From Bacteroides sp. (GTDB lineage: Bacteria; Bacteroidota; Bacteroidia; Bacteroidales; SM23-62): a stretch of DNA of 64,000 nucleotides. Under the pieces are notes generated by a model. The model did no database searches. It saw only the letters and a list, made by a program, of their open reading frames with translations, and was not told the origin of the DNA. This document shows positions 18,769-26,772 of the stretch, piece after piece. Within the stretch, counting starts at the first letter, position 1. Each line of letters opens with the position of its first letter. The translations under genes were made by a program, and so were the position numbers. The stretch covers positions 1 to 64,000 of the forward strand of contig DRHS01000137.1 in assembly GCA_011053095.1 (NCBI GenBank). Direction: 5' to 3'.

Positions 18769-18776
18769 TACTTTTG
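18769..18776 (+). promoter_or_regulatory. Bacteroidetes-type -7 element TACTTTTG
   Basis: TAnnTTTG match 12 nt before ATG 18789, in the divergent xth/rsgA intergenic region. Confidence 0.5.
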
Positions 18777-18788
18777 TGTTTCTATATC

Positions 18789-19724
18789 ATGGAAGGTAAA
18801 GCACTTGTCATAAAATCTGCCGGCAGCACTTATACGGTCCGTGCTTCCGGATCAGTCGATATGGACTGCAAGCTGGTCGGGAAGTATCGGCTTGAGGAAC
18901 TAAGGAGTACCAATCCGGTGGTAGTCGGTGACTGGGTGGAATTTACCCTTGAAAAAGGTGAAAAACTTGGCAGAATTACCGGGGTCGATTCAAGAAAGAA
19001 TTATATAATCAGAAAGTCTACCAACCTTTCCAAGTCTCACCAGATCATTGCTTCAAACATCGACCTTCTGATGCTGATGGTTACGGTAAGCCATCCGGTC
19101 ACCTTTCCCGAGTTTATCGACAGATACCTGGTATCAGCAGAAGCTTATAATATCCCTGCAGTACTTCTGATCAATAAGGTTGATCTATATGGAGACAAGG
19201 AAAATGAGACTCTGGAGAACTGGAAAAATATTTATGGCAAAATCGGATACAACTGCATTGAATGCTCAGTAACCGAAAGTATAAACATAGATAGCATAAG
19301 AGACATGCTGAAAGGTAAGGTTACATTAATGGCCGGGAATTCAGGGGTAGGAAAAAGTACACTTATCAATGTAATTGAACCGGGACTTAAACTCAGGACA
19401 TCTGAACTTTCGGATTATCACAAATCAGGAAAACATACCACAACATTTGCTGAGATGTTCGAGCTTGAAGTGGGGGGTTATATTATTGACACCCCTGGTA
19501 TCAGGGGATTCGGAATAACGGATATGGAAGACGAGCCCCTTTTCCATTATTTTCCGGAATTTTTCAGGATTTCTGCACAATGTAAATACAATAATTGCAT
19601 ACATGTTAATGAACCTGATTGTGCTGTTATTCAGGCCATTGAGTCCGGTGAACTTAGTATTTCAAGGTACAACAGTTATCTTAACCTGTTAGAGGAGCAG
19701 AAAAACAGCTCGAAATACAGATGA
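18789..19724 (+). CDS. rsgA: Ribosome small subunit-dependent GTPase A
   Basis: Circularly permuted GTPase: NKVDL ... GNSGVGKSTLIN ... DTPGIRGFG, C-terminal Zn motif C-N5-CIH-N5-C. Confidence 0.93.
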   Translation: MEGKALVIKSAGSTYTVRASGSVDMDCKLVGKYRLEELRSTNPVVVGDWVEFTLEKGEKLGRITGVDSRKNYIIRKSTNLSKSHQIIASNIDLLMLMVTVSHPVTFPEFIDRYLVSAEAYNIPAVLLINKVDLYGDKENETLENWKNIYGKIGYNCIECSVTESINIDSIRDMLKGKVTLMAGNSGVGKSTLINVIEPGLKLRTSELSDYHKSGKHTTTFAEMFELEVGGYIIDTPGIRGFGITDMEDEPLFHYFPEFFRISAQCKYNNCIHVNEPDCAVIQAIESGELSISRYNSYLNLLEEQKNSSKYR

Positions 19725-19769: not shown

Positions 19770-22568
19770 ATGAACAAGGAATTTTTTCTCATACTATTCT
19801 CAGTCTTTTTGTTTGTTGCAGTCAACACTATTTTCTATTTCCAGATATTAAACAAGCAGCTTGATTTTCAAACAGAATTACTTACAAGTCAGACCCAGAT
19901 TTGTGGTAATACTATAGAGCAGGAAGGGCAGAGATTTGAGAATGAATTAAACTCAATTCCATACCAGAACGATTTCACACGGCTTTTTACGGATGAGGAA
20001 ATCAAGCAGAGCGGATCTGTTAACCTGCAAAAGCTTTATACCGGATACAGCCAGCTTATTGATAAAATCACAGTATATGATAACTTCAATAATGTCTACA
20101 GCCTCATCCTGGATAATAAAAATAATTTCGTTTCCGATTATTACGAATCTCAACGGCAGGTGCCGCTTCAGGAAAGGGATCAACTGCTCGAAAACGATGG
20201 GAAATTCAAGTTAACAATACCCGGATTTGACGATAAGGGAGTCGTCCGTTCAAATATCCTTGTAGATCTGAACCATGAGCGTTTTGTGGATGCCGTCTTT
20301 GAAAGATACGCTCTGGAACATACGGTTTGGCAATGGATGGTTTCTGAGGACGGTGAACTTATTTCTTCTGCTGAAAATGTCCTCATAATACCCGACGCCG
20401 ACCTTAAACAAATTGGTGATAAGATAATGGAGATCGAAGAAGGATCCCTTGTCCATACCATTACCATTGATAGTATCTCAACTCGGGTAGTTTCGGTGTA
20501 TTATCCTGTTCGCCTGGTAAATCGGGACATGGGAATAGTTTTTTCTATAAAGACTGATCTTTTTCTCCAGTCTATCTTAATGAAGATAGTTATCATTAGT
20601 GTCTGCAGTCTTTTACTGCTGGTGATATTATTGTACATCCACTTCCGTGCAACCAATGTCCAGACAAAAAAAATTAAAGCCCATAAATACTCTGAAGATT
20701 CTCTTTTCAATACTATTGAGAGTTTACCATTTGGTATTATTTTTCTAAATCCCGACGGAAGAATTCGTAGTATGAATCATGCAAGCAGGGCAATGTTGAT
20801 GGAAGAAGAAAAAGAAGATGCTGTCAGCTATTCTGAGCTTGGTCTCGATAATATTCCGGGCTCGGTGAATGGTTTGATATATGAAAGAACTTTCGGAGAT
20901 GGCATTCTTTTAATGGTTCGCAGGAAATCCGGTATAAGGCATATATACAAAATGGAATGGGAGGCTGTTGTTGGGGAAGACGACTCCAGAATAGTATTGC
21001 TTATAGATGTAAGTGAGCTGAACAGCCTCAGGAACCTGGAAAAAATTTCCGAACTGGCCAGGGTGGAGATGCTTGATAGTATGGCAAAAGAAATATCTGT
21101 TCCACTTGCACAGTTAAGAAAAATCATACCTGAAGGAAGGGATGAAGATCTTCAAAAATCCTTTACGCTGCTTTCAAACCTTATCAGTGCCACACTCGAT
21201 TTTGCAAGCAAGGAAGCTGCTGGTGTGGTAACAGAAGAAATTCCATTTTACCTAAGGTCGGAACTGGAACTTGCCCTTGAACCTTATCACCGCAATCACT
21301 CTTCAGTTAGTATTATTACCAAAGTCAGGAATGAGGTTCCGGACAAGCTGGTTGGCGATCCCTTCCGGCTCAGGCAGGCCATCAATTGTCTTGTTGATAA
21401 TGCATTGGAATTAACTGATGAGGGAAGAATCCTTATTAGCTGTGAAGTACTTGAACAGCGTGCCGGTCCTCTTAAACTAGAATTCCACGTTGAAGATACC
21501 GGCTCCGGATTGAATGAGGAACAAATTGAAGCCCTGATGAATGATCTGCACAGGGGAAAAATTAATCATATAGAAGAATCGAGTGGATTCAATAGAAGAT
21601 TGGCTATTGCCAGGCAGCATATAGAACTTATGAAGGGCCAGCTTTGGCTTGAATCTCCATCTACCATTTCAACAAGTCCGGACCATCCCGGAATAAAGTA
21701 CAGCTTTACCCTGGATATTTTCCCGGCGGAAAGTGTCAGGGAAAATCTGGTTTTCAATGAAATTGGTCGATTTGAAGATATTGAATGCCTTGTTGTTTCA
21801 CAGGAAAAAGAAACAGAGACTGACCGGTTTAAGTTCCTGCTTGATACAGGACTGAAGCTTAAGTATCTTGTTTACCGTGAAGAAAATACCAATTCACTCT
21901 TTGAGTTAATCGCTGAGAAATCTGCTTCTCTTCAAATGCTTATTCTGATGAATTCTGCCACACAGGATGGCTTCAGTATAGCTGGACAGATTATCCGAAA
22001 GGAGCTTAATGATAATCTCATTCTGATCCTTCTCAATTCTGAACACAGACAGGATCATTACTCAATTTCAATGGGTGCAGGAATCGACTATTACCTTGAA
22101 GATCCCTTTGACCCCTACCTTTTTGCTGAGATATTTTCCAAACACTTTCCGGGTCTGGATAAAGGAGAACTTGACAAGATACCTCGAACTGAAAATATAA
22201 ATCCCAGGATCTCTGTTCTACTTGCAGAAGATAATCTGTTTAACCGGAAGCTTATACAGGGTTTGTTTAAAAGGCTTGGACTTGATATAGACCTGGCTGA
22301 GAATGGCGCACAGGCAGTTCAACGGGTCAGGGATAAACATTTCGATATTATTTTTATGGATCTTCTTATGCCTGAAATGGATGGAGTTCAGGCTGCAATT
22401 GAAATACGTAAACATGGCTTCAAAGCTCCGATTATTGCTTTGACAGCTGTTGAGAATGAGGATGCCCGAAAATCCGCCATGAAAGCCGGCTTTGACGATT
22501 ACCTTATTAAGCCCGCCGCTGAGGATTCCATTCGGAAAATTCTATTGAAAATTATTCCAAAATCCTGA
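19770..22568 (+). CDS. Hybrid sensor kinase-like protein with degenerate HisKA, HATPase_c, degenerate receiver and intact receiver
   Basis: N- and C-flanked periplasmic sensor, PAS-like region, HATPase N box NCLVDNALEL and G1 VEDTGSGL, terminal REC LLAEDNLFNRKLI..IIFMDLLMPEMDG..ALTA..KPA. Confidence 0.85.
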   Translation: MNKEFFLILFSVFLFVAVNTIFYFQILNKQLDFQTELLTSQTQICGNTIEQEGQRFENELNSIPYQNDFTRLFTDEEIKQSGSVNLQKLYTGYSQLIDKITVYDNFNNVYSLILDNKNNFVSDYYESQRQVPLQERDQLLENDGKFKLTIPGFDDKGVVRSNILVDLNHERFVDAVFERYALEHTVWQWMVSEDGELISSAENVLIIPDADLKQIGDKIMEIEEGSLVHTITIDSISTRVVSVYYPVRLVNRDMGIVFSIKTDLFLQSILMKIVIISVCSLLLLVILLYIHFRATNVQTKKIKAHKYSEDSLFNTIESLPFGIIFLNPDGRIRSMNHASRAMLMEEEKEDAVSYSELGLDNIPGSVNGLIYERTFGDGILLMVRRKSGIRHIYKMEWEAVVGEDDSRIVLLIDVSELNSLRNLEKISELARVEMLDSMAKEISVPLAQLRKIIPEGRDEDLQKSFTLLSNLISATLDFASKEAAGVVTEEIPFYLRSELELALEPYHRNHSSVSIITKVRNEVPDKLVGDPFRLRQAINCLVDNALELTDEGRILISCEVLEQRAGPLKLEFHVEDTGSGLNEEQIEALMNDLHRGKINHIEESSGFNRRLAIARQHIELMKGQLWLESPSTISTSPDHPGIKYSFTLDIFPAESVRENLVFNEIGRFEDIECLVVSQEKETETDRFKFLLDTGLKLKYLVYREENTNSLFELIAEKSASLQMLILMNSATQDGFSIAGQIIRKELNDNLILILLNSEHRQDHYSISMGAGIDYYLEDPFDPYLFAEIFSKHFPGLDKGELDKIPRTENINPRISVLLAEDNLFNRKLIQGLFKRLGLDIDLAENGAQAVQRVRDKHFDIIFMDLLMPEMDGVQAAIEIRKHGFKAPIIALTAVENEDARKSAMKAGFDDYLIKPAAEDSIRKILLKIIPKS

Positions 22569-23649: not shown

Positions 23650-24348
23650 ATGAACAAAACAATTGAAACCATGGGCTCCATTGCCAAGGTGGAGAAACTT
23701 GAGACACTCAATAATAATACTCTTGAGAATACCCTGGTGCTTGAGGAGATCGAACCGTTTCCGGGATATCATGGGGGCAATCTGCCAAGCGGCTATAATC
23801 CCACTGCAACTTATCTGGTCCTTAAGAAAAAGGTGTCAACGATCAGGATTATGCGGATAACACAGAATATCCACAAATACTTCAAGCCCGGGTTTGACGG
23901 TTCGCCTGCGGAGATTTGCATTAATAATGACATTTTTACCTGTATTCGACTTCGTAATTTTAATAATTATGGAATCATCCCTGAGCTACAGAAGCATTAT
24001 ATGCATGAGGGACTCAAGTTTATGAAGAAAAAGAAAATTCATGGTGATGGTATCATCGAGATAAAAAAGCATTTTGAACTTGAAAAGCTTGGTGATGGTA
24101 TCTTTAAGGACCTGGAAGATCCCCTGATGTTCTATCTTGAGATTCCTGCACACCTTAACTGGTCTCTTTTCATTGAGATCACTACTTCAATAAAACACAA
24201 CCTTGATGATCTTAGCTTCGATGCTGCACTTGGTGCAATCTATATGAAAGAGATTACCGAGGTAGTTAGGATCTTTGCAAGGGATATGAGTATAGAAGAC
24301 CTTCAAAAGATAAGGCAGAAGTATAATGAAGAACTAAGAAAGTATTAA
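23650..24348 (+). CDS. Conserved-looking hypothetical protein
   Basis: 232-aa ORF with promoter-like element upstream and plausible composition; no domain recognised. Confidence 0.7.
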   Translation: MNKTIETMGSIAKVEKLETLNNNTLENTLVLEEIEPFPGYHGGNLPSGYNPTATYLVLKKKVSTIRIMRITQNIHKYFKPGFDGSPAEICINNDIFTCIRLRNFNNYGIIPELQKHYMHEGLKFMKKKKIHGDGIIEIKKHFELEKLGDGIFKDLEDPLMFYLEIPAHLNWSLFIEITTSIKHNLDDLSFDAALGAIYMKEITEVVRIFARDMSIEDLQKIRQKYNEELRKY

Positions 24349-25617: not shown

Positions 25618-26772
25618 CTAAACTGATTTATTGAGGATAATCCGGATGATTGTGCTTTTTTCGGCTTCAGACTGCAGAACGAAAATTTTTCCTTTGTGAT
25701 AGATTTCTACAATCCTTTTTGCCAGGGAAAGACCGAGTCCCCATCCCCGCTGCTTGGTTGTATATCCAGGTTTAAATATCGTTTTTTGCCGATTCTTGGG
25801 AATGCCTTTACCTGTATCATCAAAATCAATAAACACCTGCTTTCCCTGATCCAGTAGTGATATTTTCAAGGTACCCTTCCCGTCCATTGCATCCACTGCA
25901 TTTTTACACAGATTCTCAACCACCCATTCGAAAAGGGATTTGTTAATTGGTACAATCATGTTGTCGGAATCTGCCTCCAGCGAAATGCTGACATTTTCAG
26001 AGGTCCTTGATATCATGTAATCCATCGAATCCCGGAGAACATCTCCTATTATCTCATCGCTGAGAATCGGTTTGGATCCGATCTTTGAAAATCTTTCCGT
26101 GATTTGCTCAAGCCGGCCAGCATCTTTCTCCAGCTCGCTTATAAGTTTTTTATCCGGGTGTTTTTCCTTCAATATCTCTACCCATCCTATCATTGACGAT
26201 GTCGGTGTGCCAAGCTGGTGGGCTGTTTCTTTGGAAAGGCCGACCCAGACCTGGTTTTGCTCAGCCTTGCGTGAGGTACTGAAGGCAAGATATGCAACCA
26301 GGACAAACAGCAGAATAACCCCGAGTTGGAAATAGGGGTAATACGTTAGTTTGGCAAGTAGTGTTGAGTTCCTGTAGTAAACATAATTAACAAGTCCCTC
26401 TCCAAGATCAACTTTGATGGGAAGATTCTCATCCTTCATTTTCTGCAATTGTCTCCGCACATAATCCGGGTTTTCCATTTTCAGGGAGTCCAGGTTTCTT
26501 TTTTCAATTATGTTCTCATCCTGGTCAACAAGAATTACAGGAATGGTTGTATTGTATTGAACAACATGTAGAGGAAATCCAAAATCCTGTCCGGTAATAC
26601 TTATATCAGCAAGCTGCCGGGTAGCTTCTGCCCATAATTCAACCTTTTTGTGTTCTTCTTGTGCCAGTAGCTTTACAAGGCTGTGTGTATAAAGCAGGGA
26701 GCCCATGCCAATGAGAGATGCAAAAAGGATCAGATAAAGCTTCCAGCGTTGTTTTCGGTAGTATATATCCAT
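25618..26772 (-). CDS. Sensor histidine kinase
   Basis: TM helices, H-box ETAHQLGTPTSSMIGWVEIL, HATPase N box ENLCKNAVDAMDGKG and DDTGKGIP. Confidence 0.88.
   Translation of the reverse strand: MDIYYRKQRWKLYLILFASLIGMGSLLYTHSLVKLLAQEEHKKVELWAEATRQLADISITGQDFGFPLHVVQYNTTIPVILVDQDENIIEKRNLDSLKMENPDYVRRQLQKMKDENLPIKVDLGEGLVNYVYYRNSTLLAKLTYYPYFQLGVILLFVLVAYLAFSTSRKAEQNQVWVGLSKETAHQLGTPTSSMIGWVEILKEKHPDKKLISELEKDAGRLEQITERFSKIGSKPILSDEIIGDVLRDSMDYMISRTSENVSISLEADSDNMIVPINKSLFEWVVENLCKNAVDAMDGKGTLKISLLDQGKQVFIDFDDTGKGIPKNRQKTIFKPGYTTKQRGWGLGLSLAKRIVEIYHKGKIFVLQSEAEKSTIIRIILNKSV

Follow-up and report, generated by a model that had tools for sequence, protein, structure and literature searches.

The rsgA-linked hybrid kinase locus

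An intact open reading frame at 19770-22568 on the forward strand of the window (the whole stretch of 64,000 nucleotides that was analyzed) encodes a kinase-dead hybrid histidine kinase of 932 aa, with the domain order Cache-like sensor, PAS, DHp, CA, pseudo-receiver and receiver. It is located directly downstream of rsgA (18774-19724, same strand; Pfam RsgA_GTPase), the conserved upstream neighbor, whose adjacency to the hybrid kinase at nearly every locus read anchors the orthology. Of 40 loci read across 15 families of the order, about 37 have beside rsgA a homolog with the same domain order and a length of 813-1003 aa (a few of them shortened by contig ends), and since these homologs share both the position and the domain order they are positional orthologs. 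Among public named genomes, only distant hybrid kinases were found. The motifs of 116 orthologs were tabulated, with all motifs being readable in 113 of them. This sample is biased, as family f112 was sampled on purpose, and the less biased first set consists of 41 sequences.

All domains of the hybrid kinase are encoded on the forward strand. The extracytoplasmic Cache-like sensor (aa 26-262, 19845-20555) was delimited by the secondary structure of an AlphaFold2 model (mean pLDDT 78.6, pTM 0.40), in which the order of strands and helices places it between two membrane helices; dCache_1 of Pfam matches five of 37 orthologs and gave no match in the window protein itself. A PAS-like domain follows (aa 310-420, 20697-21029), with weak PAS matches in the window protein and matches in 20 of the 37 orthologs. 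Next to it lie a degenerate DHp (aa 425-497, 21042-21260), for which Pfam returned no HisKA match in the window protein even at E<=1 and HisKA matches in 32 of the 37 aligned orthologs, and a degenerate CA or HATPase domain (aa 498-652, 21261-21725; HATPase_c, E-value = 5.7e-13). The pseudo-receiver (aa 660-795, 21747-22154) has no Pfam match in the window protein, and its strands and helices are modeled in a receiver-like order. Finally, the C-terminus is occupied by an intact receiver (aa 812-928, 22203-22553; Response_reg, E-value = 1.3e-27).

Additionally, an uncharacterized protein of 232 aa is encoded at 23650-24348 on the forward strand. Members of its family are found near the locus in f1 (the family of the window), f38, f82 and part of f112, and the gene is duplicated in one genome (G321, L089). 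No Pfam match was obtained for this protein, apart from a sub-threshold match resembling succinylglutamate desuccinylase.

Concerning the kinase core, the window protein lacks the acceptor His and the G2 box, both of which define an active hybrid histidine kinase. The His box reads S437-M-A-K440-E-I-S-V-P-L, and in the alignment of the 116 orthologs Lys440 (codon at 21087-21089) falls in the phospho-acceptor column. The initial annotation, made on the same DNA, had already read the acceptor His as replaced and G2 as lost, and both the Lys and the absent G2 are confirmed by alignment with canonical orthologs. It had also raised the prospect of a His elsewhere in the dimerization helix; there is none between residues 391 and 507, so the DHp holds no other phospho-acceptor. 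A further change, missed at that stage, is a DHp hairpin about 12 residues shorter than that of the relatives. In the CA domain the N box (Asn544) and the G1 box (D576, G578, G580) were found in place, as had been described, and since both survive, weak ATP binding is possible. The ATP lid and the G2 box are gone (EESSGFNRRLAI in the window protein vs RKYGGTGLGTTI in canonical orthologs), and lid residues 595-604 have a pLDDT below 50 in the model. Together with the N-box Asn and the G1 box, the final receiver is what remains of an active hybrid kinase, its site being complete with the acidic pair E820/D821, the phospho-acceptor D864, T892 and K914. It is thus the only receiver that looks functional, as the initial annotation had proposed, and its overall picture, in which the hybrid has lost its kinase but still has a working final receiver, is borne out by the motifs and by the evolutionary record presented below.

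The middle receiver had likewise been described as dead. Asn728 does occupy its Asp column, but a recent death is ruled out, because none of the orthologs has the acidic pair, whether its kinase is live or dead, and this includes those that keep the Asp (D in 101 of 116). The middle domain was therefore a pseudo-receiver before the kinase died.

Repeated loss of the phospho-acceptor His

With a canonical kinase core defined as SHE[IL]RTP[LM], an N box and GGxGLG, ten of the 15 families are canonical in every sampled copy (f8, f29, f37, f42, f43, f64, f82, f85, f97, and f118), while kinase damage was detected in the remaining five (f1, f112, f38, f74, and f7). In f1 the His has been replaced by K, R, Q, and Q in four genomes and is kept in three, and G2 is gone in 7/7 genomes. 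In f112 the position is taken by Y in 33 orthologs, F in 13, Q in six, and R in three, with His in 17. Family f38 has His in nine orthologs and F in one, with G2 lost throughout; f74 carries N and R; and in f7 the His is present, with altered surroundings and an altered G2. Overall, the acceptor position is H in 54 orthologs, Y in 33, F in 14, Q in eight, R in five, K in one, and N in one. As to conservation of the His loss, which the initial annotation had proposed to check, a residue other than His is found in 62/116 orthologs; its identity is varied and 54 orthologs keep the His. The figure of 62/116 comes from the biased sample, and in the first-gathered set it is 10/41. For reference, a missing His has been reported for 0.9% of HisKA domains, 722 of 76,471 (PMC12632262). 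As a control, 20/20 paralogous hybrid kinases from the same order keep the His; these were chosen by a match starting downstream of the His, so the state of the His was not selected for.

A 71-row gene tree, which was built without the columns of the DHp, the CA and the middle receiver and which is a quick tree with some long branches, requires at least eight changes of the His state. When only losses are counted on the same tree, there are at least nine, whichever of three live families is taken as the root. Within each of four genera, some species have the His and others lack it, and these mixed genera support repeated loss independently of the tree. One further genome points in the same direction: G006 carries a second, partial copy of rsgA and the hybrid kinase (L044, G006:C142) which retains HEIRTPL, so its His loss is probably separate from that of the window clade, although the G006 assembly is 8% contaminated and L044 may belong to a contaminating relative. 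A single recent mutation is ruled out by the gene tree and by the genera with mixed states. The initial annotation had considered that orthologs with an intact HisKA would mark the loss as recent; such orthologs do exist, but the loss is old, varied and repeated in other families.

Might the protein nevertheless still be a kinase, through another phospho-acceptor residue or with partial activity? The N box and G1 survive in the window protein and about 20 His-less orthologs retain a G2-like pattern, which would fit this idea. We consider it very improbable, given a DHp devoid of His, the missing ATP lid and G2, and an acceptor position filled by K, R, Q, Y, F or N, residues that are mostly not phospho-acceptors here.

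Within f1, the order of events can be partly read from the alignment and the tree. All seven genomes have lost G2, which would make this the older, shared change. Three congeners (G001, G002, and G003; L080, L078, and L079, respectively) keep the His in the form SHEIAGPV, have a Ser in place of the Mg-binding Asn of the N box, and have lost the middle pseudo-receiver in a clean deletion of about 135 aa, the CA being joined to the last receiver via a short linker. The window and two other f1 genomes show the opposite combination, with the Asn and the middle receiver kept and the His lost. The kinase of this family thus appears to have been finished off by two routes.

Conservation of the receiver and the sensor

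A kinase core was scored as broken when His, the N-box Asn and GxG[LITM] were not all present, and 76/113 orthologs fell in this class. The complete final receiver site is nevertheless kept in 74 of these 76, and likewise in 60 of the 62 His-less orthologs, while the phospho-Asp of the final receiver is kept in 113/114 orthologs. The exceptions are the two f74 sequences (L092 and L093), where the acidic pair has become EN or EH; in f7 (L086), the phospho-Asp of the last receiver has itself become Asn. Such damage suggests a further step toward a protein that is not phosphorylated at all; with its receiver active site damaged, the protein of f74 and f7 would have to act without receiver phosphorylation, or else is decaying.

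The initial annotation had offered three roles for the protein, namely phosphate sink, scaffold or trans-driven receiver. Because the receiver site persists in 74/76 kinase-broken orthologs, these sequence comparisons favor, without deciding the matter, a receiver phosphorylated in trans, or a phosphate sink, over a pure scaffold. According to the latter explanation, the dead core would sense or hold another two-component protein, as in DivL, and phosphorylation of its own receiver would be irrelevant. DivL is a precedent for a protein of this type working by binding, and in two large genera, g113 and g215, Tyr or Phe has replaced the His with the flanking SxEIRTPL unchanged, as would be expected if the DHp surface still binds. 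However, a phosphorylation-independent protein would have no need of the Asp, the acidic pair, the T/S and the K that are so widely kept, and we regard a pure scaffold as distinctly less probable than a trans-driven receiver.

Conservation among the domains also differs from that of live relatives. Mean identity within f1 is 65% for the receiver, 62% for the sensor, 55% for the CA, 50% for the DHp, 44% for the pseudo-receiver and 39% for the PAS, which is the fastest-changing domain of this family. In each of the eight kinase-competent groups compared, conservation is higher in the DHp than in the sensor, so the relation between sensor and DHp is reversed in the window's family. Two other measures were discarded. 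The divergence ratio of DHp to receiver does not cleanly separate dead from live groups, as f97 and f82, two live groups closely related to each other, have ratios above 1 as well; the claim is therefore limited to the reversal between sensor and DHp in the window's family. When branch lengths were estimated domain by domain on one fixed tree, the DHp seemed to change faster in dead clades, but the values obtained for the short domains of the window's family were implausible and the method was set aside.

Pairwise dN/dS values (NG86) among G001-G003 are 0.03-0.08 for the receiver, 0.05-0.11 for the sensor, 0.12-0.13 for the DHp and 0.08-0.18 for the CA; they are rough, because some synonymous distances exceed 1, and pairs outside these three genomes are mostly saturated. 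The gene is therefore under purifying selection in the kinase-dead congeners, and decay is excluded there. Additionally, full-length intact frames were found in 7/7 genomes of f1 and in 90/98 sampled genomes of f112. A pseudogene is ruled out by these frames and by dN/dS values far below 1 in every domain. It could still be argued that the gene is losing its function after its signaling pathway became useless, since several domains are degenerate and the middle receiver has been deleted in one clade. With intact frames, low dN/dS and a preserved receiver site, this explanation is hardly credible.

Known pseudo-kinases and a putative role in trans

The sensor of RetS is of the 7TMR-DISM type; the window protein differs from it in having a Cache-like sensor, two membrane helices and an added PAS. 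RetS has a degenerate HATPase, does not autophosphorylate, and is phosphorylated on its REC2 by GacS (PMC5992135). Both proteins combine a membrane sensor, a DHp, a degenerate CA and two receivers with a working Asp in the last one, but the G-boxes of RetS are lost (PMC5992135), whereas the window protein keeps G1 and has lost the His and G2. Crystal structures of RetS match the kinase region of the window protein by sequence (E-value = 2.6e-16) and by fold. Any HisKA/HATPase protein would be expected to match in this way, and the match is not evidence of the same mechanism; the relation is one of general homology and RetS is not an ortholog. By analogy, the window protein plausibly works like RetS.

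DivL is not known to carry a C-terminal receiver, while in the window protein no part of the old transmitter is better preserved than the receiver. In DivL a Tyr stands for the His, kinase and phosphatase activities are absent, and the protein binds DivK~P and controls CckA (PMC4211667). Replacement of the acceptor His and repurposing of the kinase core are common to both; the residue is Lys in the window protein, with Tyr also occurring in 33 orthologs of f112. Among PDB entries, ShkA (6qrj) matched best both by sequence and by fold, and the order DHp, CA, pseudo-REC and REC is that of ShkA, GacS and RcsC. Pseudo-receivers between the CA and the true receiver are widespread, and the one of ShkA bears a c-di-GMP site (PMC7010744). 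ShkA, however, is an active kinase, and the pseudo-receiver has been deleted in three relatives of the window gene. RcsD, whose pseudo-kinase domain has been named as such (PMC3762810), is similarly a membrane sensor with a dead kinase module fed by another hybrid kinase, but it ends in an Hpt domain and the window protein in a receiver. Finally, a ChrS variant of Corynebacterium glutamicum shows that loss of the kinase can give a useful signaling protein, in that case through a heterodimer with the paralogous HrrS (PMC9491836), although it arose in the laboratory via a frameshift in the CA and is without a receiver.

The explanation that we prefer, with a probability of roughly 0.55, is a RetS-like pseudo-hybrid with a Cache sensor, whose receiver would be phosphorylated in trans and would serve as sink or relay in a kinase complex. 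The Cache-like extracytoplasmic domain and the PAS would sense a signal, and the old DHp and CA, which may no longer bind or transfer the phosphate of ATP, would remain as a folded dimerization platform. The last receiver (D864) would then take phosphoryl groups from another histidine kinase, most likely within a mixed complex or next to it, and this would lower or redirect the output of the donor kinase, as RetS does to GacS. Since the kinase has been lost about nine times with sensor and receiver kept, other kinases probably feed the hybrid protein, or are restrained by it.

Concerning possible donors, at least 26 HisKA matches and one free Hpt of 120 aa (L114, G000:C79:6612-6851, beside a reading frame with a STAS domain) were detected in the genome, which means that phosphodonors exist there, the assembly being 83% complete. 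One candidate is the intact orphan histidine kinase at 25618-26772 on the reverse strand (SKETAHQLGTP, His185), which had been suggested as donor from the outset. Its His, N, G1 and G2 are kept in 21/21 sequences (the window and 20 others), but its linkage is not evidence for a partnership, because in f8 and f29 the hybrid kinase is alive beside the same histidine kinase; it is therefore retained as a candidate only. This gene sits between those of a U32 family protein and an AsmA-like protein, with no response regulator gene beside it, and in two other genomes (G034 and G380; L087 and L091) the orphan kinase comes immediately after the hybrid kinase and has the same orientation. It may resemble PorY; a search of the genome for PorX (PglZ) as a hint of PorY gave no match.

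The same inventory bears on a half-dead relay, in which the protein would pair with a live hybrid kinase in a mixed dimer and pass phosphate from the partner's His to D864 and on to the free Hpt, adding an input to a phosphorelay instead of draining it. The presence of a free Hpt is consistent with such a role, since Hpt proteins are the usual targets of hybrid-kinase receivers, and positive cross-talk has a precedent in LadS (PMC12189002). However, only one Hpt was found, in an assembly of 83% completeness, it has no genetic link to the hybrid kinase locus, and a sink and a relay cannot be separated by sequence alone. We consider this relay unlikely, and the trans-driven sink or relay within a kinase complex remains the preferred reading.

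A broader idea is that the sensor and the receiver, working in the complex of another kinase, were always the useful part of this protein, with the orphan kinase at 25618-26772 or a related live hybrid kinase as the trans donor. Its own kinase activity would then have been dispensable and hence lost repeatedly. We put this forward tentatively and think it rather improbable; if true, the locus would offer a natural series in which a single signaling protein occurs in intact, half-dead and fully dead form.

Pseudo-histidine kinases are so far represented by a handful of cases, mostly single proteins. The one described here is new in detail, with its Cache sensor, dead DHp and CA, ancestral pseudo-receiver and preserved receiver. 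Repeated conversion of a hybrid kinase locus was not found described in the open-access literature, which is not proof of its absence elsewhere. The main point is that one orthologous locus has been converted repeatedly and by different routes with its receiver kept, and that live relatives flank each His loss, even inside single genera. Why hybrid kinases become pseudokinases, and which role remains to them afterward, are thereby questions that can be tested within one gene.
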